Below are positions 26,981-56,883 of a DNA stretch of 64,000 nucleotides, one piece after another. Source of the DNA: Dokdonella sp. (GTDB taxonomy: Bacteria > Pseudomonadota > Gammaproteobacteria > Xanthomonadales > Rhodanobacteraceae); assembly GCA_016712865.1 (NCBI GenBank), contig JADJQH010000008.1, positions 1,116,001-1,180,000 of the forward strand, given 5' to 3'. Every line of letters begins with the position of its first letter. Position 1 is the stretch's first letter. The notes beneath the pieces are model-generated. The model was not told the origin of the DNA and did not search any database. It was given only the letters and a program-made list of their open reading frames with translations. The position numbers and the translations under genes were made by a program.

Positions 26981-28543
26981 TCATTCCTCGAAATCGTCGT
27001 CAAACAGGGCGTCCGAGGTGAATTCGCTCGTGTTGCCATCCGCATCGGTGGCAAGCAGCACCAAAGCGTGCCCGCCGAGCGAGGCCGTCGGCACGCTGAC
27101 ACTTCGCAGGGTCTGCGCATCGACTTCGGCAATGCTGTCGGTGAACGCGATGATCTCCATCTGTCCCTTCGATCCACCGCCGATGTCCACCCGCAGTGGA
27201 TAGGCGGAATTTCCCGTCGCGCTATCGACCAGGTAGTCGATCTGCATCGTCGCCCCGTTGTCGAGATAGCTGATGCTCTCGATGTGCGGTGTGTTCTGCA
27301 GGCGGTTGCCGCCCTGGTCGACATCGCCCGCATCGTTGGGCGTTGCGCCATCAGCGTTGGAAAAAGGTGCCAGATCAATGCCGATGGCGTTGCCGTGGAA
27401 GCTGTTGCCAAGAATGGCCGCGCCCGTGCAGGTGGAAACCAGCACGCCCGCCGCTGCCCCATGGGCGATCCGATTGCCTTCACCTGCTGCGTCACCGCCG
27501 ATGAGGACGCCACATTCACCGCCTCGGAAAACCACGATGGTTGGCTGTGGCTGGGAGGGCGAGGAAGGAAAGCTGCCGTTGGGGCGAGCCAGCGTTCCAC
27601 TCCAGTCGGTACCGAACACGTTGCCCTGGATGCGCACCGGATTGGCGTTGGCGGCCGCGGCATTGGTCGAAATGTAGATTGCACTGGTCTCGATGCCCGA
27701 AACCAGGTTGCGTGCGGCCACGCTGCCTCCGCCTATCACGTTGCCCTGCACGGGGTTGGTCACGTACAGGCCGTAGTCCTGGCCTTGCAGAACAGTGCTG
27801 CCGTCCGCGCCCAGGCCGATGATGTTGCCCTGCACTTGGCTGGTCTGGAAAGTCGAGTTCGCGCTTTCGTCCCACAGGCCGATGTAGCCATTGCCGGAGA
27901 TGACATTTCGCGCAGCGGACGTAGTGCCGCCGATGATCGCTGCACCACGCTGGCGAATACCGTAGGAATTGTTGCTGGCGGCCATGCCTTGCATGCCGGT
28001 GATGTCGGTACCGATGAAGCAGCCTTCGACGACATTCGGGCCGGGCGACTGCAATTGCACGTTGATCTGGAAATTGTTGATGGCCACGCCGCGCAAATGC
28101 AGCAGCGGATTTCCGTTGCCGACATCGATTCCGGCTTGCGAGCTGCTGCCGAACCCGTGCAGCTCGATCTTGAGCACGGCGTTGCTGCCGCCTTCATCCG
28201 CTGCCAGTGTGTTGGCTGTGGCACCGGGCTGGCTGTAGCCATCAACGCTCAGCGTGTCCTGGATCAGCGGCAGCGTGGTTGCCGGCGAGATTCGCCAGTG
28301 ATCGGTAGCTGCCACGTAGCCGGCATCGCTGATGGGAATGTCGAACACGATACTGTCGGCACCCGCACTCGCATTGGCCAGGGTGATGGCGCCGCGAAAC
28401 GAGCAGTTGGCGTTTCCGGGGTTGGCATCGCAAAGCTGGAACGGCGCGCTGCCGTCATCGCTGGTCGTGTCGACGAGAAACGTGGCGGCGTTGGCGCAGG
28501 GCGCCAGCGCCAGCCAGGCAAGGGTGAACGCGAAACGTGACAT
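26981..28543 (-). CDS. Secreted beta-helix protein, CSLREA-like
   Basis: 520 aa. GGAGAG precedes ATG 28541-28543 and the product has a signal peptide (ending PCANA-ATF). The segment FLVDTTSDDG... LCDA...CSFRGAITLANA matches the N-terminal domain often annotated CSLREA. The middle is a right-handed parallel beta-helix built of short repeats rich in G-N-x-I/V-x-G (GNVIGG, GNIIGLG, RNVISGNG). The protein ends ALFDDDFEE, a short Phe/Asp tail similar to that of the next protein. It is likely surface-exposed or released; no enzyme motif is apparent. Its upstream region carries the 25-bp element shared with the gene at 28814-30511, so the two are probably co-regulated. Confidence 0.8.
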   Translation of the reverse strand: MSRFAFTLAWLALAPCANAATFLVDTTSDDGSAPFQLCDANPGNANCSFRGAITLANASAGADSIVFDIPISDAGYVAATDHWRISPATTLPLIQDTLSVDGYSQPGATANTLAADEGGSNAVLKIELHGFGSSSQAGIDVGNGNPLLHLRGVAINNFQINVQLQSPGPNVVEGCFIGTDITGMQGMAASNNSYGIRQRGAAIIGGTTSAARNVISGNGYIGLWDESANSTFQTSQVQGNIIGLGADGSTVLQGQDYGLYVTNPVQGNVIGGGSVAARNLVSGIETSAIYISTNAAAANANPVRIQGNVFGTDWSGTLARPNGSFPSSPSQPQPTIVVFRGGECGVLIGGDAAGEGNRIAHGAAAGVLVSTCTGAAILGNSFHGNAIGIDLAPFSNADGATPNDAGDVDQGGNRLQNTPHIESISYLDNGATMQIDYLVDSATGNSAYPLRVDIGGGSKGQMEIIAFTDSIAEVDAQTLRSVSVPTASLGGHALVLLATDADGNTSEFTSDALFDDDFEE

Positions 28544-28586
28544 GTTGCTCTCCAGCGCAACGGCGGATGCCGGCTTTCCAGGTACA

Positions 28587-28611
28587 TACGCCGTTGCGGT
28601 GCAAACCTGAC
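28587..28611 (-). promoter_or_regulatory. ECF-type promoter candidate, copy A
   Basis: Minus-strand element reading GTCAGGTTTG... then CAACGGCGTA, 44 nt before the start of the CSLREA-like gene. It differs at a single base from copy B (30561-30585). GTCAG and CGTA are 16 bp apart, the general layout of ECF sigma promoters (TGTCA-like -35, CGTA/CGTC -10). Assignment to the neighbouring sigma factor is inference. Confidence 0.5.
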
Positions 28612-28702
28612 GTGATCGCCTGAATTGCCAGGACGGGCATGTGGCGGCCCACGGCGTTCTGCCCGACGGGAAGCTGCTGGTGATTCAGCGGACGCGCCCT
28701 CG

Positions 28703-28813
28703 GGGAAGGTCTGATCAAGTATTGTCGCGAGCACGCTCGCTCCCACCATTGCTTGATTTTGTGGGAGCGAGCTTGCTCGCGACGAATGAGTTCCGTACTT
28801 GTTCAGAGTTTCT
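28703..28813. repeat. MITE-like element, copy 1
   Basis: 111-bp element. It is nearly identical, in the opposite orientation, to 59420-59531. It holds two inverted units of a GTGGGAGCGAGC-TTGCTCGCGAC type, the REP core known from pseudomonads. Outer ends resemble 19-bp terminal inverted repeats ending in CTGATCAAGTA / TACTTGTTCAG. Its right end touches the stop codon of the beta-helix gene at 28814. It has no coding capacity. Confidence 0.85.
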
Positions 28814-30511
28814 TTAGGGCACGTCGAAAGCGTCTGCAAAGATGCGGTCGTCAACCAACTCGATCAACTGACGCTCGACGGCGCCCGTGTCACAGTCCGC
28901 GCTGCCATTTCCATCCATGTCAACGGGACGTGGCCGACCGCGGGTATCACCTCCCTTGAAGACGCATGCGCTCACACGATCCGTCGCGGGACTGTTCGGC
29001 TGCGGCAGGAAGGTGGGAAAGCGGCCACCGTTGTTGGCAAGCGGAGCCAGGCCAAGCTGGGAGAAGCCCGATACGAAGAGATCGTGTGCGGCACCGAATC
29101 CGCAACTGGCAGGTGCCAGGTTGTAATCGAAGGTGAATAGTTGCCCTCCGCTTTCCACGGAGCAGGCCGCACCGTTGCTGGCCCAGATCATGCTGGCAGC
29201 GACCCCCAGGCTCGACCCACTGCCAATACTCACCGTGCTGCCAGTTGCGGAGCTGGCGTTGACCAGCGTGGAGTAGGAAATGCTGGCATTGATCGGGTTT
29301 GCACCCAGTAGATAGAGGTCGCCACCGAAGGCATCGGCACTGTTGCCGTTCGTGGTTACCTGGAACAGGTCCAGTCTGGGCGGCAATGGCCCGCCTCCGC
29401 TTCCTGCGGCATCAATGGCACCTCCCGAGAATCCGGCATGGTTTGCGATGAAGGCGCTGTTGGCGATTTCGCTGTCCAGCTGTGGACTGAGGTTGATGGC
29501 GCCGCCGAATTCGGCCTGGTTCTCCTGAAAAAGGCTTCCATACACCTCGATGGCATTGATTGCTGATATGGCGCCTCCGAAAAAGCTTGCGGTGTTTTCC
29601 TCGAACCGACTGTTTTCGATTTCGCCCGGGCTGCTCAGTGATTCCAAATAGACGGCGCCACCGCTGGATGCGGAATTGTCGAAAAAACGGGAGCCGAGCA
29701 GATTGAGCTCTGCATTCTCCTTGTAAACGGCGCCGCCGAAATCCGCTGCGTTGCCGCCGAAAAAACTGCGGCTCACGTTCAGATTCCCGAAAAAGCTGGC
29801 AACAGCGCCACCTACGGCGCTGGTTGCCCCGGTGGCATCGTTCGCCGTGTTGAATTCGAACGAACTGTCGGAGATGTTGGCTACCGAATAGCTGACGATC
29901 GCACCGCCTGAGACTGCAAAGTTGTCTTGGAACGTTGAATTGGCCACGTTGAGCAAGGAGTTGCCGGCAGCCGCGATTCCGCCGCCCGTGAAATCGGCAC
30001 TGGAGTTCCGGATGGTCGCGCGCAGCACGCTCAGGCTGGCGTTTTCGCCCAGATACACGGCACCACCAAAGTCGCCGTGACCGTTCGCCAAGGTGATGTT
30101 GCGCAGCTCAACGGCCGTTTGATCTTCGGGGTTGGTCACGCTGATATACAAGGGCCGTGTGTTGCCCTGGCCGTTCAGGGTGATCAGGCCCCCGCCATCA
30201 ATGGTGCATTGGCCCTCCAGGAATTTCGTGGAAGTCAGGGCAATGGTGTGGGGAGCGGCACCGCAGGAAAACGTGAGCACGCCCCCCGGACCCTGCACGC
30301 CAACCACCAGTTGAAACATTGCGGCGTTGAGCGCGGCCTCCGTGCAACTGGCGGGAGTTCCGTTACCGACAACCACATTGTCTGCATGCGCAAATGGGCA
30401 CAGGACCAATGCGCTCAGCAGAAGCGCCGAAGACTTGGTTTTTTGCGCTTGGGGTGTGGCGTAAAGCCGGGCGAATCCGGGAAGGGATATGGAACAATGG
30501 GTCGATACCAT
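28814..30511 (-). CDS. Secreted polymorphic-membrane-protein-like beta-helix protein
   Basis: 565 aa. GGAGG lies before ATG 30509-30511; the signal sequence is long (positive start, hydrophobic stretch SSALLLSALVLC, cleavage near AHA-DN). Residues about 110-430 carry at least six copies of a repeat with FxxN followed by GGA(I/V), for example RFFDNSASSGGAV, RFEENTASFFGGAI and LFQENQAEFGGAI. This is the signature pair of chlamydial polymorphic membrane proteins. Near the end a RGRPRPVDMDGNG...CDTGAVE segment matches the choice-of-anchor Q type domain, and the protein ends DRIFADAFDVP. It is probably displayed or released. No autotransporter barrel is present, so export past the outer membrane must use another route. 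Confidence 0.8.
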   Translation of the reverse strand: MVSTHCSISLPGFARLYATPQAQKTKSSALLLSALVLCPFAHADNVVVGNGTPASCTEAALNAAMFQLVVGVQGPGGVLTFSCGAAPHTIALTSTKFLEGQCTIDGGGLITLNGQGNTRPLYISVTNPEDQTAVELRNITLANGHGDFGGAVYLGENASLSVLRATIRNSSADFTGGGIAAAGNSLLNVANSTFQDNFAVSGGAIVSYSVANISDSSFEFNTANDATGATSAVGGAVASFFGNLNVSRSFFGGNAADFGGAVYKENAELNLLGSRFFDNSASSGGAVYLESLSSPGEIENSRFEENTASFFGGAISAINAIEVYGSLFQENQAEFGGAINLSPQLDSEIANSAFIANHAGFSGGAIDAAGSGGGPLPPRLDLFQVTTNGNSADAFGGDLYLLGANPINASISYSTLVNASSATGSTVSIGSGSSLGVAASMIWASNGAACSVESGGQLFTFDYNLAPASCGFGAAHDLFVSGFSQLGLAPLANNGGRFPTFLPQPNSPATDRVSACVFKGGDTRGRPRPVDMDGNGSADCDTGAVERQLIELVDDRIFADAFDVP

Positions 30512-30560
30512 GGTGGTCCTCCGCTGTGGCTGGGGCGCAACGCGCGCCTTTCCGTGGACT

Positions 30561-30585
30561 TACGCCGTTGCGGCGCAAACCTGAC
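30561..30585 (-). promoter_or_regulatory. ECF-type promoter candidate, copy B
   Basis: Located 50 nt upstream of the PMP-like gene, in the space it shares with the divergent sigma factor gene. On the minus strand TGTCAG (starting at 30586) and CGTA (30564-30561) flank a segment containing the hairpin CGCCG-CAA-CGGCG. It is identical to copy A at 24 of 25 positions, while sequences around the two differ, so the conservation looks functional. Confidence 0.55.
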
Positions 30586-30616
30586 ATGTCCGGCTAGAAT
30601 CGCGGCGGGAGGTGCC

Positions 30617-31183
30617 ATGAGCAGTCCGGATGGAGAAATCACCCGCTTGTTGCGGCAGTGGCAGGAGGGTGACGGCGCTTCGCTGGACGCCTTGTTGCCT
30701 GAAGTCTGGCAAGAGCTTCGGCGCATTGCCGCACATGAGCTGCGCGCAAATGCGGGCCACGAAACCCTGCAACCGACGGCCTTGGTCAACGACCTGTTCG
30801 TGCGCTTGCTCGGTGCCCGGCAAGTCCAGATCGAGAACCGCAAGCACCTGTTCACCACGGCGGCCAAGCTGATGCGGCAGGTATTGATCGACCGCGCGCG
30901 CGCCCAGCAACGCGAGAAGCGTGGCGGTGGGCATTGGCGTCGTGCCGATCTCGTGGAAGCGATGGCACTTCCCATCGATACGCCCACGGATCTGCCGGCA
31001 CTGGACCAGGCCCTTGACGCGATGGCCGAGCTGGATCCGCGAATGGCCCAGATTGTCGAGCTGCGCTATTTCGTAGGCCTCGAAGTGAACGAAGTCGCCC
31101 GCTTGCTGGAAGTCGATGAGCGCACCGTCTATCGGGACTGGGCACTTGCACGTGCCTGGCTGCGGCAGCGCCTGGATGCCTGA
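30617..31183 (+). CDS. ECF sigma factor of the kinase-associated group (ECF43 / TIGR02999 type)
   Basis: 188 aa. GGGAGG lies 4 nt before ATG 30617. Region 2 runs from about residue 25 to 100 (TALVNDLFVRLLG, then HLFTTAAKLMRQVLIDRAR). Region 4 follows (LDPRMAQIVELRYFVGLEV, then LLEVDERTVYRDWALARAWL). There is no anti-sigma gene. Instead a Ser/Thr kinase follows with a 1-bp overlap (TGATG). In the ECF43 group, sigma activity is switched on by phosphorylation from the partner kinase; a Xanthomonas pair of this kind controls type VI secretion (recalled, not checked). Targets here may be the two beta-helix genes. The sigma gene is divergent from one of them. Confidence 0.9.
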   Translation: MSSPDGEITRLLRQWQEGDGASLDALLPEVWQELRRIAAHELRANAGHETLQPTALVNDLFVRLLGARQVQIENRKHLFTTAAKLMRQVLIDRARAQQREKRGGGHWRRADLVEAMALPIDTPTDLPALDQALDAMAELDPRMAQIVELRYFVGLEVNEVARLLEVDERTVYRDWALARAWLRQRLDA

Positions 31184-34014
31184 TGTCAGATTTGCGCACG
31201 CATGACGTAAGTGCAGGCATGAACCTGCAAACCGAAGGTGCCAGCGGGCGATTCGCCCGATTGCGTGATGCATTTCATCGTGTGATCGATATGGACCTTT
31301 CGCAACGCGACGCGGAAATCGCGCGCCTGTCGGCGAGCGATGCGGCCTTCGAATCTGAATTGCGCTCGCTGGTGCAGCACACGGATGAAGCGGATTTGCT
31401 GGTTGCAGACGAACCCTCGCTGCCGCAACTGGGTCCATTCCGCGCCGAGCGCAAACTCGGGCTGGGTGGCATGGGCGAGGTGTGGCTGGCCAGGCGCGTG
31501 GATGGCGGCTTCGAGCAGCAGGTTGCCATAAAGCGTGTGCGCGACGGTGCGTGGTCGCCGGGATTTGCGCGCGGCTTTCTGCGCGAACGACAGATTCTGG
31601 CTCGCCTGTCTCACCCGCACATTGCGCACCTCGTCGATGGCGGGGTGGGCTCGGATGGGCATCCCTGGTTGGCCATGGAATATGTCGATGGCCAGCGCAT
31701 CGACACCTGGTGCGACTCTCGGCACCTGGTCGCCGCCGAACGCGTGCGCCTGTTCCTGCCGGTGTGTGACGCCGTCGCGTTCGCGCATCGCAATCTGGTG
31801 ATTCACCGCGACCTCAAGCCGGCCAATATCCTGGTCGACGAGGACGGCAGGCCTCGCTTGCTCGATTTCGGCATTGCACGCCTCCTCGACGTCGAGAAGA
31901 GTGAGCTGACTCGAACCTGGGGTGCGATGACGCCGGCTTACGCAGCGCCAGAACAGCGCGAAGGCGGTGACATAACCACGGCAACGGATGTCTATCAATT
32001 GGGCGCGGTGCTGCGTCAGCTGGTGCGCTCTGCGGCCGATGGCGAACGGGCGCAGCAAGGCGACCTTGGGCACATCCTGGACAAGGCCCTCATGCCGCTA
32101 CCGGCTGATCGCTATGCCGGCGTGATCGTCATGGCCAACGATCTTTCCGATTGGCTGGCGCGCCGCCCCCTGCGCAGCGGCGTCGGCAGTCGCCGAGAGC
32201 GCCTGAAGAAAACTGCGTGGCAATGGCGCTGGCCGCTGGCCATGTTGGCGGCCGTGGTCGTCGCCGTGGGCAGTGGTGCCGTACTTGCCCTGCGCGAGGC
32301 GCGGGCAAAAGTGCGCGAGGCGGAGACTTCCCGGCAGACAACACAGTTCCTCATAAGCCTGTTCCAGGGCGCAGATCCGACGGTCGCACGGGGAGCAAAG
32401 TTGAGTGCGCAGGATCTGCTTGACCAAGGCAGTGCCAGACTGCGTTCGATGTCGCATCTGTCACCCCCTGTTCGCGCCCGCATGCTGCAAACCATTTCAG
32501 CGACCTACACGGCGCTGGGTGACTACGACCGTGCCCTCGCATTGGCAAGCGAAGCGCTTGATCTGCGACGTGCCGACGCCGCGTCGCTGGAAATGGCGGA
32601 AAGTCTCGATCAGGTGGGGGAAGTCCTGCGCTTGAAGGCCGACTACGCAGGCGCCGAGCCGTTGTTGCGCGAGGCTCTGGATCTGCGCAGCGCACAGCTC
32701 GCACGCGATGACCCGGCGATCATCGAAAGCCTGGCGCACTTGGGTGCCTTGCAGGTTGGCCTTGGCAACTTCCAGTCGGCCGATGAACGCTTTGCGCAAG
32801 CCGTGCAATCCGCGCAGCGGCGCTTTGGCGAGAATTCGGTTGAGACGGCTCGCTATCTCGACAGTTATGCCAGCAATCTGGATGACATGGGGCGACGTAC
32901 GCAAGCGCTTGCCTTGCATCGCCGCGTGCTGGCCATCCGCGAACGCGTGCTTGGAATGAACGATGCAGAGGTTGCGACGACATTGGCCAGTCTCGGTGTG
33001 CACCTCTCAGGCTCGGGACACCTGGAGGAGGCCGCACGGATGCTTGAGCGTGCGCTGGCAATCCGCATTACCGTGTTTGGTACGTCGCATCCATTGGTTG
33101 CCTTCACCCAGATCGACCTTGCCGGGGTGTATGCCGACCAGGGAAGACTTGATGATGCGAAGCGACTGGCACAGGAGTCACTCGACAGCTGTCGCGCATC
33201 GCTGCCGGCGGACCACCCCAAGATCAGCGAGGCGCTCAACATGCTCGCCTTGATCCGCGCAGTACGTCGCGATTTCCCCGGCGCGGTGACCCTGCAAGAG
33301 GAAGTGTTGCAGCGCTTCGTTGCTTCACTGGGGGAGGATCATCCCAACACCCTGACGGCGAAGAACAACCTGGCCTACTCTCTCATCCACTCCAACCGTG
33401 CTTACGAAGCCGAAGTGCATTTGCGCGAGGTGCTTGCGCGCAAGCGCAAGGACAACGGACAGGGTGCGCATGACCTGCAGAATCTGGCCACGGCCGTGGG
33501 ACTGCAGGGCAGGCATGCGGAGGCGGTGCAATTGCAGCGCAGCGCTGTGGAATTGCAGAAGGCGCGCGAAGGCGAAACGTCGGCAGCCACCGCCGTGGCG
33601 CTGCGCGAATTGGCCATTGCCGAGGAAGTGCAGGGCAGCGATCCGGAACCCCGGTATCGCGCAGCGCTGGCCATGGCCGAGACCGTGGGCCAGGCCCGTG
33701 AAATCCCGTTGCGTGGTTGGCAGGTGCCCTTGGCGGCGTTTCTGGTCGGTGCCAATCGCTGCCGGGAAGCAGTGCCGCTGCTTCGCAGTGCACTGGCCGG
33801 CATGGATGCTGCGGCCAATACCGCAGATCCGATTGCAACGCCGCAGATGCTCCTGCTGCTGGATGCCTGCTCGGCTCAGGCCAGCCAGTCCGCATCGGGC
33901 ATGTCGCGCGTCGACGCCTGCGCGGCCTTGCGCGAATTGCCGGGCGCAGGGGTCGATGTCTATCCCGTTACCCGTACCTTGCTGACAACCCGCTGCGGCA
34001 TGCGCAAGGGATGA
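31183..34014 (+). CDS. Membrane Ser/Thr protein kinase with C-terminal TPR array
   Basis: 943 aa. An N-terminal extension (about 1-82) precedes a Hanks-type kinase domain (about 83-330) with GLGGMGEVW, AIKRV (catalytic Lys near 117), HRDLKPANIL near 208 and DFGIA near 228; all key residues are present. One membrane helix (LAMLAAVVVAVGSGAVLAL, about 355-375) separates it from roughly 560 residues of TPR/Kinesin-light-chain-like repeats (for example ALALHRRVLAIRERVLG and AARMLERALAIRITVFG). The TPR part should face the periplasm as the sensor. It is coupled to the ECF sigma gene and is expected to phosphorylate that sigma factor. It is the longest gene of the putative regulon. Confidence 0.92.
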   Translation: MSDLRTHDVSAGMNLQTEGASGRFARLRDAFHRVIDMDLSQRDAEIARLSASDAAFESELRSLVQHTDEADLLVADEPSLPQLGPFRAERKLGLGGMGEVWLARRVDGGFEQQVAIKRVRDGAWSPGFARGFLRERQILARLSHPHIAHLVDGGVGSDGHPWLAMEYVDGQRIDTWCDSRHLVAAERVRLFLPVCDAVAFAHRNLVIHRDLKPANILVDEDGRPRLLDFGIARLLDVEKSELTRTWGAMTPAYAAPEQREGGDITTATDVYQLGAVLRQLVRSAADGERAQQGDLGHILDKALMPLPADRYAGVIVMANDLSDWLARRPLRSGVGSRRERLKKTAWQWRWPLAMLAAVVVAVGSGAVLALREARAKVREAETSRQTTQFLISLFQGADPTVARGAKLSAQDLLDQGSARLRSMSHLSPPVRARMLQTISATYTALGDYDRALALASEALDLRRADAASLEMAESLDQVGEVLRLKADYAGAEPLLREALDLRSAQLARDDPAIIESLAHLGALQVGLGNFQSADERFAQAVQSAQRRFGENSVETARYLDSYASNLDDMGRRTQALALHRRVLAIRERVLGMNDAEVATTLASLGVHLSGSGHLEEAARMLERALAIRITVFGTSHPLVAFTQIDLAGVYADQGRLDDAKRLAQESLDSCRASLPADHPKISEALNMLALIRAVRRDFPGAVTLQEEVLQRFVASLGEDHPNTLTAKNNLAYSLIHSNRAYEAEVHLREVLARKRKDNGQGAHDLQNLATAVGLQGRHAEAVQLQRSAVELQKAREGETSAATAVALRELAIAEEVQGSDPEPRYRAALAMAETVGQAREIPLRGWQVPLAAFLVGANRCREAVPLLRSALAGMDAAANTADPIATPQMLLLLDACSAQASQSASGMSRVDACAALRELPGAGVDVYPVTRTLLTTRCGMRKG

Positions 34015-34081
34015 TCAGGGACGACTGAGGATGTGTTTCCGCACTGGTTGAATGTTGCGGGGACCTTGGAAAGAAACCTGT

Positions 34082-34963
34082 TCACCACGTCAGCGGCATC
34101 ATCGTGGCGCGGTCGGTGCGTGTTCCACATGACAGCGGTGACCTGACAATGAGCGGTGCCAAAGGCGAAGGAAGCGGCAATTCCCACGGGTCTTCACCCA
34201 TGCCATCGGAGAACACGCGGTCGCGGCCCAGATCCGTCGCCAAACGCAGGTCGGTATTCTGGGTCGAAGCACTTCCGCAGTAGCAGGGAATCTGCTGGCC
34301 GGTGGATTGATCAAAGCATTCGGAATTGAAATCGGTGAAGTGCTTGTATTGGGTGGTCAGCGGGTCGTAGCTCATCGAGTCCGGCTGGTGGAACTCGTGG
34401 TCGAGGCCGAACAGATGGCCGGCCTCGTGCGTCGCGGTCCAGCACAACTCTGGGATGTTGTCTCCGTGAGCCGCGGAAAACACGAAGGCAATCGTGTTGA
34501 CCAGTGGAACTCCGCAGGCCCAGGGAGAAACGCCAAGAACTCCGCTTGACATGCCGATGTTGCCTGGGTTGCCTCCTATCATCAGCTCGCGATGCGGCAC
34601 GTTGCCAGGATCGGTTTCCGTGATGGTCATGAAATAGGGCGCATAAACCCGGCGCACGCATTTCACCAGTGCGCCCCAGGATGCATCTCCGAAGGCGTGT
34701 TCAGGAATCACTCGTGGTTGGTTCACCAGGGAAGACTGGTTGGTGATTGCATTGTCAGGTCCGGGCAACACCGTGCAAGTGGGGGTGCAGCGATTGAGGT
34801 AGAGCAATTCTTGTACAGGAGGTGATCCCTGCGTCGACGGGGAGCCCTGTTCGGCCAGCCGCGAATAATTCCCTGCAAGGGCGGGCGCGGTTGCAGAGAA
34901 AGTTGCTGCGACGAAGGCCAGTGCGTGACCAGTCAAGTAAAGGCGAGCTTTTGATGCCGACAT
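34082..34963 (-). CDS. Secreted zinc metalloprotease (metzincin type)
   Basis: 293 aa. GGGGGA precedes ATG 34961-34963, and the signal peptide ends ATAPALA. The zinc motif [11 protein letters not shown] (HExxHxxGxxH, about residues 180-190) and the following DSMSY, a candidate Met-turn, place it among metzincins. Eight or more cysteines (for example [14 protein letters not shown]) suggest disulfides and extracellular action. No propeptide cysteine switch is obvious. It lies convergent with the kinase gene, 67 bp away. Its substrate and any link to the kinase system are unknown; its upstream region only weakly resembles the shared 25-bp element. Confidence 0.8.
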
Positions 34964-35061: not shown

Positions 35062-35175
35062 ATGAAAAGGTATTTCAATCAATTGGTTGCGATAATTTTG
35101 CTTGTTTCCCCAGCAAAAGCCCCCAGATCGTGCGGCCCTACCCAGCGACGAAGCCGACCCACATGTCCGAAATGA
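35062..35175 (+). CDS. Possible small secreted peptide or leader ORF upstream of tldD
   Basis: 37 codons. GGAG lies 5 nt before ATG 35062, a better ribosome site than that of tldD. The N-terminus looks like a signal sequence ([20 protein letters not shown]), leaving a 17-residue basic, Cys-containing end ([17 protein letters not shown]). It overlaps the tldD start by 13 bp in another frame. It could be a real small protein, a leader peptide coupling tldD translation, or chance. Confidence 0.3.
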
Positions 35176-36605
35176 TTGCGCTGGCCGAGAACCGCCTGTT
35201 GCGCCCGGGAGGGCTTGCGGCCTCCGATCTGGATCGCGTGTTTTCTCGCCTGATGAGTCCGGCCGTTGATTCGGCCGACCTCTATTTCGAACACTCGCGC
35301 AGCGAGTCGTGGATGCTTGAAGACGGCCTGGTCAAGGAAGGCAGCCACTCCATCGAGCAAGGTGTCGGCATCCGTGCGCAGTCGGGCGAGAAGACCGGAT
35401 TCGCCTACTCCGATGACATCGTCATGCCGGCCTTGCTGGAGGCTGCGGGTTCCGCGCGTGCCATTGCGCGCGAAGGTGCCGCCGGGTCCGGCAAGGCGCT
35501 GGCCGTCACCTCTGCGCGCGCCTTGTACCCGGCGCTGGATCCCATTGATTCGATGTCGAGCGAAGCCAAGGTGCGCCTGCTCAACGAAATCGATGCTTAT
35601 GCGCGCTCGCTGGATTCGCGTGTGCGCGAGGTCATCGTCAGCATCTCGGCCACCGTCGATACCCTGCTGGTCGCCGCTTCCGATGGCACCCTGGCTGCGG
35701 ATGTGCGTCCGCTGGTGCGCTTCAACGTGCAGGTGATTGCCGAGCAGAATGGCCGCCGTGAATCCGGAGGTTGCGGTGGTGGTGGACGCTACGATCTGGT
35801 GGAATTGCTCAAGGATGATCGTGCGCGCCGAATCGCCCGCGAGGCGGTGCGCTCGGCGCTGGTCAACCTGGACGCGGTGGACGCACCGGCCGGCAACATG
35901 ACCGTAGTACTGGGACCGGGCTGGCCCGGCGTGCTGCTGCACGAGGCCATCGGCCACGGGTTTGAAGGCGACTTCAACCGCAAGGGCACCTCGGCGTTTT
36001 CGGGCAGCATGGGTCAGCGCGTTGCTGCACGTGGCGTGACCATCGTCGATGACGGCACCCTGGCCGGACGGCGCGGTTCCTTGAGCGTGGACGACGAGGG
36101 CACGCCCAGCCAATGCACGGTGCTGGTCGAAGACGGCATCATGAAGGGGCTCATCCAGGACAAGTTCAATGCGCGACTGATGGGCATGAAGGCGACCGGC
36201 AACGGTCGGCGCGAATCCTTTGCCCATCTGCCCATGCCGCGCATGACCAACACCTACATGCTGGCCGGACAGCATGAGCCGGACGAGATCCTGCGCTCGG
36301 TCAAGCGTGGTCTGTATGCGGTCAATTTCGGCGGCGGCCAGGTGGACATCACCAACGGCAAGTTTGTTTTCTCGGCCAGCGAGGCCTATCTGATCGAAGA
36401 TGGCAAGATCACGCGGCCGGTCAAGGGCGCCACCCTGATCGGAGCCGGTTCCGAGGTGCTCAAGCAGGTCTCGATGATCGGCAACGACCTCAAGCTGGAT
36501 GAAGGCGTGGGTGTATGCGGCAAGGATGGCCAGAGCGTGCCGGTCGGAGTTGGCCAGCCGACCTTGCGCATCGACAATCTCACGGTGGGTGGCACGGCAG
36601 CTTGA
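35163..36605 (+). CDS. tldD: Metalloprotease TldD
   Basis: 480 aa (MSEMIAL start; MIAL three codons on is possible). TldD is the zinc-bearing subunit of the TldD/TldE protease, which degrades unfolded peptides and matures microcins and antitoxins. The zinc motif [11 protein letters not shown] lies near residue 262. The C-terminal Cys ligand region is GVCGKDGQ, followed by [16 protein letters not shown] at the end. The partner PmbA (TldE) is encoded 0.6 kb downstream on the same strand, with yjgA on the opposite strand in between, a common arrangement. Confidence 0.95.
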
Positions 36606-36619
36606 TGCGCCGCGCGGCC

Positions 36620-37156
36620 TCAGTCCGTTGTCGGCGCCTGCATGTCGCGCAACAAGCGGAAAAGTTCACGCGCGGCACGCGGCGGTTTCTGTCGACTGGC
36701 CTCGACACCGGCCTGGCGAATGAGGGCACGCAGGTGCTGGCGATCGGCAGCCGGATGCTGGAGCAGGAATTCGTCAAGGGCTGGATCGCCTTCGGCAATC
36801 AGGCGATCACGCCAGGATTCGAGTTGATGCAGGACGGCGACTTCGCGATGGAACTGCTGCCGATCGCCGTCGAGAACCAGTCGAACGGCCTCGATCTGGC
36901 CATCGTCGAGCCTGCGCAATTGCTTGGCGAGGTATTGGGTCTGGCGTTTGCGCGCAATGGGTTGATGGATGTTGCGGGTGCGGCGGATTTCAGCGATCAG
37001 GGTTTCATCGAGGGGAATGCGGGTGAGTTGGGCGTCACTCAACCGGGCAAGGGCTTCAGCCAGTTTGAATATGGCCATGGCGTCGCGGCGCAACTGGCTG
37101 CGGCTGGGGCCATCGAATTCGCTTTCGATCTCGTCGAGTGACATTGTCAATGACAT
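36620..37156 (-). CDS. yjgA: Ribosome-associated protein YjgA (DUF615)
   Basis: 178 aa, highly charged and helical. SEFDGPSRSQLRRDAMAIFKLAEAL near the N-terminus, IRRTRNIHQPIARKRQTQYLAKQLRR and the end RELFRLLRD are typical. YjgA binds a late 50S ribosome precursor. The start is either ATG 37154-37156 or 37142-37144; neither has a clear ribosome site. It is convergent with tldD (14 bp) and divergent from pmbA, whose GTG is 44 bp away. Confidence 0.9.
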   Translation of the reverse strand: MSLTMSLDEIESEFDGPSRSQLRRDAMAIFKLAEALARLSDAQLTRIPLDETLIAEIRRTRNIHQPIARKRQTQYLAKQLRRLDDGQIEAVRLVLDGDRQQFHREVAVLHQLESWRDRLIAEGDPALDEFLLQHPAADRQHLRALIRQAGVEASRQKPPRAARELFRLLRDMQAPTTD

Positions 37157-37200
37157 TTTCGGGTGGCGCGCGAGTGCCGCGCAGTAGGGAAGGATAAGGC

Positions 37201-38556
37201 GTGAACCAGGCAATCACCAATTCCGATGACAGCATGACCGAACTCGACAGGCTGTCGGAGCTGACGTCGGACGTGCTGCGTCGCTGCAAGGCAAAAGGTG
37301 CGAGCGAGGTTGATCTCGGCTTTGGCGTCGACGTCGGCCTGAACGTGAGCGTGCGGCTCGGCAAGGTGGAATCGATCGAGCACAATCGTGATCGCGGGCT
37401 CTCGCTGACCGTGTTCTTCGGCAAGCGCAAGGGTTCGGCAAGCACAGCCGACCTCAATCCGGATTCGATCGAGAAGACCATCGAACATGCCTGCGCCATC
37501 GCCCGCCATACCGAGGCGGACCCCTGCAATGGCCTGGCCGATGCCGATCTGCTGGCGCATGACTTTCCCGATCTCGATCTCTGGCATCCCTGGCAGATCG
37601 ACATCGAGGCAGCCACGAATCTGGCCCTGCGCTGCGAAGCGGCCGGTCGCGAGCATGATCCGCGTATCAGCAATTCCGAGGGTGCCACCGTGCAAATCGG
37701 AAGCTCGCTTGGCGTGGGCGCGACCTCCCACGGTTTCTTTTCGCGCGAGCGCGATACCCGGCACATGGTTTCCGTTGCCCTGCTTGCCGAGGATGAAGCC
37801 GGCATGCAGCGCGACTACTGGTACGAGACGGTGCGCTGCGCCGATGATTTTCCGGATGTGGCCGTGATCGGTCGCAAGGCTGCCGAGCGCACCGTGGCTC
37901 GCCTGGCGGCACGCAAGCTCAGCACGCGCCAATGTCCGGTGCTGTTTTCCGCGCCGGTCGCGCGCAGCCTGCTCGGCAGCTTCATTTCCGCGGTCAGCGG
38001 CGGCGTGCTGTATCGCAAGGCCAGTTTTCTGGTCGATCACATCGGCAAGCCGGTGTTTCCATCCTTCGTCAACATCATCGAACGTCCACGGCTTGCGCGC
38101 GGTCTGGCATCGGCAAATTTCGACAGCGAAGGCGTGGCAACGCGTGACTCCGATCTGGTCAGGGATGGCCATCTCTCGCGCTATGTGCTCGGCAGCTATT
38201 CTGCGCGCAAGCTCGGGCTCACCAGCACCGGCAATGCCGGTGGTGTGCACAATGTCCTGGTCAGTCACGGCGAACTCGATTTCGCCGGCATGCTCAAGCG
38301 CATGGGCACGGGTCTGCTGGTCACCGAATTGATGGGCCAGGGCGTTTCCCTGCTTACCGGCGACTATTCACGCGGGGCTTCGGGTTTCTGGGTGGAAAAC
38401 GGCGAGATCGTGCATGCGGTCGATGAAGTCACCATCGCCGGCAACCTGCGTGACATGTATGCCAACATCGTCGACATCGGCAGCGACGTGGATCGGCGCT
38501 CGCACCTGCTCACCGGTTCCATCCTGCTTGAACGCATGACCATTGCCGGATCGTGA
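37201..38556 (+). CDS. pmbA: Metalloprotease-associated protein PmbA/TldE
   Basis: 451 aa. GTG 37201 with AAGGATAAGG just upstream is used; ATG 37234 (MTELDRLSEL) is possible. Features: ASEVDLGFGVDVGLNVSVR, LDLWHPWQ, RDYWYETVRCADDF, FLVDHIGKPVFPSF and GVSLLTGDYSRGASGFWVENG. It lacks the HExxxH motif, as expected: TldE is the non-catalytic partner of TldD. Together they form a cytoplasmic hetero-dimer protease. Confidence 0.95.
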   Translation: MNQAITNSDDSMTELDRLSELTSDVLRRCKAKGASEVDLGFGVDVGLNVSVRLGKVESIEHNRDRGLSLTVFFGKRKGSASTADLNPDSIEKTIEHACAIARHTEADPCNGLADADLLAHDFPDLDLWHPWQIDIEAATNLALRCEAAGREHDPRISNSEGATVQIGSSLGVGATSHGFFSRERDTRHMVSVALLAEDEAGMQRDYWYETVRCADDFPDVAVIGRKAAERTVARLAARKLSTRQCPVLFSAPVARSLLGSFISAVSGGVLYRKASFLVDHIGKPVFPSFVNIIERPRLARGLASANFDSEGVATRDSDLVRDGHLSRYVLGSYSARKLGLTSTGNAGGVHNVLVSHGELDFAGMLKRMGTGLLVTELMGQGVSLLTGDYSRGASGFWVENGEIVHAVDEVTIAGNLRDMYANIVDIGSDVDRRSHLLTGSILLERMTIAGS

Positions 38557-55815: not shown

Positions 55816-56883
55816 ATGAACCGGTTTGCGGGGCTGGACCTGTTGCGCGTCATCGCCGGCCTTGCGCTGATCGTCTGCCACACCGCATTTCTGCTTTCCT
55901 CCCTGCGCATCCCGGATTCGGTGTGGCTGTACCTGGGCCTGGTCGGAGTGGAAATCTTCCTTGTCAGTCTGGGATTCCTGCTCACCTGCCGGATGCTCGA
56001 GTCGGCACCGGTGCGGATCGGGCGCCAGTGGTTGCGCGCCATCATGCGCTGGTGGCCGCTGTACCTGTTGATGCTGGCATTGAACCTGTTCATTTCCGGA
56101 GCAGGTGTTCCCGGCGTCCCATGGATGCAGTATGTGGTTCTTGCCCAGAACCTTGCCTGGCCGCATCCGGAATTCTTTGGCGAGGCATGGATCGTGGCCG
56201 CGGCCGTGATGATGGCGCTGTTGATTCCACTGGCCGTTCGATTCCTTGCGCGATGTTCGTTTGCTGTCGGCGTGCGTTGGATCGTTTGCCCGTTGCTGGT
56301 GGGATGCGTGGTGCGCAGCCTGGTGATCGGCTTGCAGGATCCGGCATTTGACCTGGGTGTGCGCAAGATCCTGCTGATGCGCCTGGACCTGCCGTTTTAC
56401 GGTGTCCTGGCCGGCTGGCTGTGGATGCATCGGCGCAATGAACTGCTGCGCTGGCGGCGTGCCTTGGCGGCATCGGGTGTCATTGCGCTCGCAGCAACGG
56501 CGTACGTGTACGTTTCCGTTGCCCTTGATGAGAGCGTGCTTGCGCGCAACGCCTTGCTGCCGCTGTGCGACCTTGGCTGCGCCATGTTGTTGCCCTGGGC
56601 CTGCTCGCTGCGGCTGGGCGATCGCGTGGGCAAGGTGCTGCGCGTTGTCGCCGCCAGCATGTATGCAGGGCTGCTGACGCATGTGACCGTGTTGCGCCTG
56701 GGTGTCTTCCTTGGCCTGCCGCTTGCAGCCCAGTCTGTCTTGCAAGGTTTCCTGATGCTGTCAGCCTGCATCCTGGTTTGCGGCGGCGTTGCCATCCTGG
56801 TCTGGTGGCTGCTCGACCGGCCCTGGCTGCTGCTGCGTGATCGCCTGTTTGCCGAGCATGCGGGCCCAGTCCGTGAACGGTGA
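55816..56883 (+). CDS. Membrane acyltransferase 3 family (OafA/YrhL-like)
   Basis: 355 aa with about ten membrane helices. The N-terminus (FAGLDLLRVIAGLALIVCHT) is the conserved family opening with the Arg and catalytic His. It would transfer acetyl or another acyl group to a cell-surface glycan. No SGNH domain is fused. It starts 6 bp after rlmB but is unrelated to it. Its last 123 bp overlap the end of the sterol-desaturase-family gene on the other strand. Confidence 0.8.
   Translation: MNRFAGLDLLRVIAGLALIVCHTAFLLSSLRIPDSVWLYLGLVGVEIFLVSLGFLLTCRMLESAPVRIGRQWLRAIMRWWPLYLLMLALNLFISGAGVPGVPWMQYVVLAQNLAWPHPEFFGEAWIVAAAVMMALLIPLAVRFLARCSFAVGVRWIVCPLLVGCVVRSLVIGLQDPAFDLGVRKILLMRLDLPFYGVLAGWLWMHRRNELLRWRRALAASGVIALAATAYVYVSVALDESVLARNALLPLCDLGCAMLLPWACSLRLGDRVGKVLRVVAASMYAGLLTHVTVLRLGVFLGLPLAAQSVLQGFLMLSACILVCGGVAILVWWLLDRPWLLLRDRLFAEHAGPVRER

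Follow-up and report, generated by a model that had tools for sequence, protein, structure and literature searches.

The stretch of DNA analysed here (the window) comprises 64 000 nucleotides of a Dokdonella sp. genome (GenBank assembly GCA_016712865.1, contig JADJQH010000008.1) and contains, between positions 26981 and 34963, a locus in which a gene for an extracytoplasmic function (ECF) sigma factor of the ECF43 type adjoins a gene for a Hanks-type Ser/Thr kinase, as is characteristic of ECF43 factors. The genes for a polymorphic membrane protein (PMP)-like secreted protein and for a second secreted protein are divergent to this pair, and a metzincin-like gene lies beyond the kinase on the opposite strand; all of the genes named in a first-pass annotation of the locus are open frames where it had placed them. 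The sigma factor gene (30617..31183, plus strand) encodes 188 residues that match the Pfam model PF07638 (Sigma70_ECF) and score 206.2 bits against TIGR02999 in an NCBIfam profile scan, 80 bits above the cut-off of 126.15. In region 2.2 the acidic motif is replaced by a threonine, in the QTTA-like sequence QPTA (T54 in LQPTAL), and T54 is unchanged in all 15 sigma factors aligned; Thr54 corresponds to the phospho-threonine position of ECF43 factors. The ECF43-type assignment, which agrees with the earlier one, is based on the TIGR02999 match, the neighbouring kinase gene and this threonine rather than on the ECF43 group models of the 2021 reclassification. The kinase, whose proposed frame is 31219..34014 (plus strand), gives family matches to Pkinase and to tetratricopeptide repeats (TPRs), and its catalytic motifs are intact (GLGGMG at 93, HRDLK at 208, DFG at 228 and APE at 255). 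A hydropathy scan reveals one hydrophobic segment, predicted to cross the membrane at residues 352–370 of the longest frame (32236..32292, plus strand), which bears out the description of a membrane kinase with a large TPR half; the predicted topology puts this C-terminal half outside the cytoplasm.

Both secreted repeat-protein genes are preceded by a copy of GTCAGGTTTGCRCCGCAACGGCGTA. Element 1, TGTCAGGTTTGCGCCGCAACGGCGTAAG (30559..30586, minus strand), has its CGTA 49 nt before the start codon of the PMP-like gene, and element 2, CGTCAGGTTTGCACCGCAACGGCGTA (28587..28612, minus strand), has it 43 nt before that of the second secreted protein. From GTCAGG onward the two are identical at 24 of 25 bases, with one A/G difference, while the preceding base is C or T; no copy arose in 100 shuffles of the window. 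Since the only matches with 0–2 mismatches in the 3.75 Mb genome are these two (one other has three mismatches), the idea of a genome-wide repeat was rejected. A third copy, overlooked in the first-pass annotation, lies at the sigma/kinase junction: element 3, TGTCAGATTTGCGCACGCATGACGTAAG (31184..31211, plus strand), immediately follows the sigma stop codon TGA and leaves 7 bases to an ATG of the kinase frame (CGTA-N9-ATG at 31219); a matrix trained on other genomes gives it 22.9 bits. Genome-wide, TGTCAGN{15,16}RCGTANG, a strict form of the pattern, is matched four times, by element 3 and the PMP site in the window and by two sites inside long frames.

Scanning genome contigs with the sigma protein gathered 34 related loci (468 kb), and in these TGTCAGG-N(k)-CGTA occurs 11 times with k = 15, 18 times with k = 16 and once with k = 17, with no match at the other 18 spacings between 6 and 26. 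Against these 29 matches at 15 and 16, 40 Markov runs over the 34 loci averaged 0.1 and never exceeded 1. Control box pairs showed either no preferred spacing or low counts spread over the spacings; the one exception, GTCAGG/TACG, has a peak of 10 matches at k = 18 because CGTACG, a frequent continuation of the element, has TACG at that offset. The nearly identical element with ECF-promoter spacing that the first-pass annotation had noticed before the two secreted genes therefore keeps its fixed 15/16 spacing among relatives, and the outcome that annotation had named as fatal to its proposal, lack of conservation upstream of orthologous genes, was looked for and the element was found to be conserved. 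Two boxes at fixed spacing, oriented towards the gene and placed before the start codon, are the features by which an ECF-type promoter is recognized.

The element is tied to one clade of sigma factors. In a tree of 47 sequences the window's sigma factor and those of all 27 loci L031–L057 form one clade (support 100/99), and the ten paralogs encoded in the same genome fall outside it. Eleven sigma factors of this genome, the window's included, exceed the TIGR02999 cut-off, as does at least one protein in 147 of 200 sampled genomes of the order, in which ECF43 factors with partner kinases are thus plentiful; a kinase match lies within a few kb of nine of the ten paralog genes (L020–L029), and none was found within that distance of the tenth, L025. 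A matrix was built from 29 training sites, every locus being scored without its own sites (leave-one-out), and at a threshold of 15 bits 23 of the 27 clade loci together hold 50 sites (shuffle mean 2.2), against none at the ten paralog loci (1.2) and none at six outside loci (0.2). We thus rejected the possibility that the ten paralogs share this promoter. Two loci, L058 (on a cut contig) and L030 (sigma factor below the cut-off), were assigned to none of these three groups, and neither has a site of at least 11 bits. Within the window the matrix also picks out a 15.0-bit match at 56479 (plus strand), which is likely a chance occurrence because about 0.4 would be expected in 64 kb (shuffles give 2.2 in 377 kb). 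In whole genomes, TGTCAGN{15,16}RCGTAYG is matched 29 times against 2 for the reversed pattern in 10 genomes encoding an at least 73% identical sigma orthologue, and 7 times against 12 in 18 genomes without a close orthologue, 10 of which hold sigma relatives of 46–60% identity; all 28 had been selected for carrying the C-terminal motif described below. The element is conserved in its spacing, its orientation and its position relative to start codons, and its tie to the window's sigma clade is supported. In three deeper members of the clade (L053, L054 and L056, metagenome-assembled genomes of Dokdonella sp.), TGTCAGGG sites with another second box (GCGTTAGG or the like) follow the kinase gene and may be a divergent form of the promoter code.

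The element is also found at the genes of the regulators themselves. A junction site of at least 15 bits is present in 14 of the 27 clade loci, where the kinase frame is 0, 1 or 2 with respect to the sigma stop codon; since this frame differs, a coding constraint does not explain the site. L042 and L046 have no junction site, yet in both a plus-strand site precedes the sigma gene. These are back-to-back elements between the sigma gene and a divergent gene (L042:7824-7839 and L046:7798-7834), and the sigma gene itself would therefore have the promoter there.

The 29 strict sites in the 10 orthologue genomes were all read: 22 precede genes for secreted proteins, two lie at the sigma/kinase junction and five (L121, L129, L141, L143 and L145) precede neither. 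In the 18 genomes without a close orthologue, two of the seven sites (L074 and L080) are before secreted proteins. Taking the window and the loci together, 43 distinct GTCAGG-N15/16-CGTA sites, a set that includes L074–L089, fetched because they match, and the L077 target, whose genome was not tested for the sigma factor, divide into 33 before secreted proteins, four before the kinase gene, two before the sigma gene and four before none of these, and in 27 of the 33 secreted-protein cases the chosen start codon is 22–67 nt after CGTA. Several of the 22 strict sites before secreted proteins, G091 C11 and C14 among them, are not on the contig that carries the sigma gene; elements away from the sigma gene are also found on G036 C9, G014 C21, G065 C22 and G103 C67. 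Family models identify a Beta_helix target in L036 and a Chlam_PMP plus POMP_repeat target in L044, and DUF5122/delta-60 beta-propellers in L038 and L040, both above the PF17164 cut-off, with a weak match in L079; L040 also passes TIGR02608, of which L038 (71.5 of 76.5 bits) and L079 fall short. In L038, tandem elements about 270 bp apart (L038:7684-7983, minus strand) lie upstream of a single delta-60 gene. The Lysobacter target of L047 is a secreted protein with an alpha-lytic prodomain, a trypsin-like domain and a lectin-like C-terminal stretch, and here, as in L048, the element lies after the kinase gene and before that of the alpha-lytic-type protein (L047:11028, L048:11029); a secreted protein of about 600 residues is a further Lysobacter target. 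The small lipoprotein targets of L034 and L044 gave sub-threshold family matches only, and the targets of L042 and L052 no family match of note. The predicted target set is thus wider than the two beta-helix proteins initially proposed, extending to delta-60 (DUF5122) beta-propellers, small lipoproteins, the Lysobacter protease and, likely, the kinase gene.

We propose, with a probability of about 0.78, that the locus is a kinase-gated ECF43 regulon in which the sigma factor drives TGTCAGG-N15/16-CGTA promoters of secreted-protein genes and of the kinase gene. By analogy with EcfP/PknT and EcfK/PknS, the active kinase would phosphorylate the sigma factor at Thr54 and the phosphorylated factor would then bind RNA polymerase, the holoenzyme starting transcription at the predicted promoters, which in this genome belong to both secreted repeat-protein genes and, by way of the junction site, to the kinase gene. 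The junction site makes feedback on the kinase likely, so that activation would yield more kinase and a sharper response. In relatives the same predicted promoter would drive secreted beta-helix proteins, delta-60 beta-propellers, lipoproteins and the Lysobacter secreted protease; because the targets are secreted proteins across relatives, the output would be a change in the set of secreted or surface proteins. The outer half of the kinase is TPR-rich in the window, L032 and L038 and less so in L047, and in a family-model scan that of the L034 and L039 kinases has no TPR match, whereas the sigma factors remain 73–82% identical to the window's in L032, L034, L038 and L039 and 61% identical in L047. 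As this half differs while sigma factor and promoter are constant, the cue probably differs among relatives and the output promoter stays.

Phosphorylation-gated ECF43 factors are already known. In Vibrio parahaemolyticus the inactive EcfP is activated by phosphorylation of the threonine in its STTA motif by PknT, encoded nearby, and is linked to polymyxin resistance (PMC8999054), a different outcome from that predicted here. EcfK/PknS of Xanthomonas citri resembles the window's pair in that the sigma gene adjoins that of a membrane Hanks kinase and a threonine replaces the region 2.2 acidic motif, but its output is the type VI secretion system (PMC13147305), in contrast to the secreted repeat proteins predicted for the window. 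The passages searched on EcfK/PknS mention neither a promoter motif nor kinase feedback nor a beta-helix target, and the ECF43 outputs named in the papers surveyed are type VI secretion and polymyxin resistance only. No paper naming the TGTCAGG promoter, a beta-helix/delta-60 regulon or the kinase feedback was found in the open-licence literature searched, and an ECF43 promoter motif may have been published elsewhere. One ECF43 clade would gain a promoter code readable from sequence and, in Dokdonella, Tahibacter and their relatives, a predicted regulon; the feedback on the kinase gene is testable, what the kinase senses becomes approachable with a reporter, and the code directs attention to large secreted repeat proteins, many with an end that resembles a sorting signal.

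Several points weigh against this proposal. Sigma factor binding, transcription and phosphorylation at this locus are predictions, made from sequence and by analogy, and Xanthomonas EcfK requires additional phospho-sites in its linker (PMC13147305). The matrix was trained on sites from 18 of the 27 clade loci, and the clade count leans upward because leave-one-out scoring keeps near-identical loci (L047/L048, L040/L041). Four of the 27 clade loci have no 15-bit site and 13 of the 27 no junction site, and strays below 15 bits occur both at paralogs (L025, 14.7; L029, 12.2) and at outside loci (L063, 13.7 and 12.8; L064, 11.8). The class ‘secreted’ denotes a hydrophobic N-terminus or signal-peptide-like start read by script and by eye, not by SignalP. 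Finally, the loose pattern GTCAGG-N15/16-CGTA occurs nine times in the window's own genome against 22 for the reversed control, an uninformative result, and none of the seven matches other than the two window sites precedes a secreted gene; as the loose pattern falls below its control there, only the strict forms carry weight.

Co-inheritance of element and sigma factor does not by itself identify what reads the element, which might be the operator of another co-inherited regulator, the adjacent ECF43 factor reading a different promoter. We consider this improbable. Two unlike blocks at a fixed spacing of 15 or 16, directed at the gene and mostly 22–67 nt before the start codon, are more in keeping with a promoter than with an operator; sites at the sigma/kinase junction and, in L042 and L046, upstream of the sigma gene are what a self-regulated sigma factor usually has, and the element is absent at the ten sigma paralogs. 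Far less credible still is a recent duplication of an upstream region without regulatory meaning. Such an event would account for the 24 of 25 identical bases and for the presence of both copies in a single locus, with no other match of 0–2 mismatches in the genome, but it is already contradicted by the relatives: in other genera, copies whose spacers have diverged stand upstream of secreted genes that are not homologous, some of them on contigs without the sigma gene.

A further alternative retains the promoter and the regulon but places the kinase start at 31183, with translation coupled to that of the sigma gene and an idle junction element. The sigma stop codon (TGA, 31181–31183) and an ATG at 31183 do overlap by 1 bp, as the first-pass annotation reported, and the window shares such an overlapping ATG with L031 and L032; this reading also accommodates the 13 clade loci that lack a 15-bit junction site. 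The ATG at 31183, however, directly adjoins element 3, and in L037, L038, L039 and L057 the kinase frame has its first Met only downstream of the junction element, for which reason the overlapping ATG is probably part of the promoter region. In addition, an in-frame ATG follows CGTA at a distance of 8–10 nt in the window, L031, L032, L037, L038, L039 and L041, and the junction site is kept in 14 of the 27 clade loci despite the differing frame. We regard an idle junction element as unlikely, if less so than the operator. The kinase would in our proposal probably start at Met13 of the longest frame (31219) rather than at 31183, and the translational coupling put forward on the strength of the overlap is doubtful.

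The PMP-like protein (28814..30511, minus strand; 565 residues) has a choice-of-anchor Q domain and scores 44.5 bits against the NCBIfam model choice_anch_Q (cut-off 25) and 19 bits against POMP_repeat (cut-off 15), in keeping with its earlier description as PMP-like. Its structure model (mean predicted local distance difference test score, pLDDT, 76.6) contains many short strands, and the best Foldseek matches are right-handed beta-helix proteins, the best with an E value of 1.3e-3 and none reaching 1e-3. It shares with the L044 target the passing of both cut-offs for choice-of-anchor and POMP repeat proteins (NF041518, TIGR01376), but it ends in the short sequence DDRIFADAFDVP where proteins of other lineages carry a membrane anchor signal. 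The delta-60 beta-propellers (TIGR02608, PF17164) are matched by targets of relatives (L040, L038) and not at the window locus. The second secreted protein (26981..28543, minus strand; 520 residues) has a signal peptide and ends in DALFDDDFEE, and relatives with 41–92% identity were aligned from 10 other loci. The labels ‘beta-helix’ and, with reference to its N-terminus, ‘CSLREA-like’ given to this protein have no backing from family models, since NosD is sub-threshold in Pfam (16.6 bits against a cut-off of 23.6) and no NCBIfam match is found at E ≤ 0.1. Its structure model has a mean pLDDT of 75.4, and the fold search gave no clear match.

The end of the PMP-like gene (28814–28860) encodes the motif DxIFx[DN]GF[DE], which is found at the C-terminus of dozens of secreted proteins. 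In the window's genome 46 places fit NTYTTYNNNRAYGSNTTYGAN, a DNA pattern written for [FILVS]F-x-[DNSKRE-like]-[GA]-F-[DE], against none for the reversed control; among the first 30 of these to be read, 26 end 0–6 residues before a stop codon, two at 21 and 27 residues, and two do not. Sampled genomes of 142 other genera of the class have 0–5 matches each, like the controls. A narrower pattern gives a bimodal distribution over 117 genomes of the family, 28 with 7–136 matches and 89 with 0–2 (controls 0), and across the order several families carry the motif often and others hardly at all. None of the Pfam and NCBIfam matches in ten scanned proteins spans the motif; choice-of-anchor and sortase-dependent M36 matches stop at or just before it, and one Pfam match extends two residues into it. 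A literature search with DGFE returned no relevant paper. On this evidence the motif may be an undescribed sorting signal. Genus g8 is divided, with the motif present in G075, G088 and G100 (35, 15 and 10 matches) and absent from G008, G032, G061 and G111 (0 each), and this split offers a natural comparison for finding a sorting gene. Six of the 11 sigma genes of the window's genome lie within 8 kb of a motif gene against 2.1 expected (p about 0.01), and at 6 kb the figure is four of 11 (p about 0.07); as the distance was chosen after the fact, the proximity is suggestive only. A strict link between motif count and number of ECF43 factors was rejected, genus g176 having many TIGR02999 matches and 0–2 motifs. 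A broader picture, in which some eleven ECF43 switches, each with its own promoter and each boosting its own kinase, would jointly choose the secreted proteins of an undescribed surface-sorting system marked by D-x-[IVL]-F-x-[DN]-G-F-[DE], is offered as a speculation that we think rather more apt to be wrong than right.

The gene beyond the kinase (34082..34963, minus strand) encodes a secreted metzincin-like protein, with an 11-letter metzincin sequence stretch at residue 179. Its presence is as first described, but the metzincin was rejected as a target of the regulon since no site of at least 11 bits lies upstream of its gene; the gene was found in L031 and not in L032. Adjoining the locus are two PmbA/TldD-like frames (window 35130–38556), which are adjacent in L031 and L032 as well; the frame at 35130–36605 has a family match, and that at 37201–38556 was recognized by a weak tblastn match via the corresponding L032 gene.

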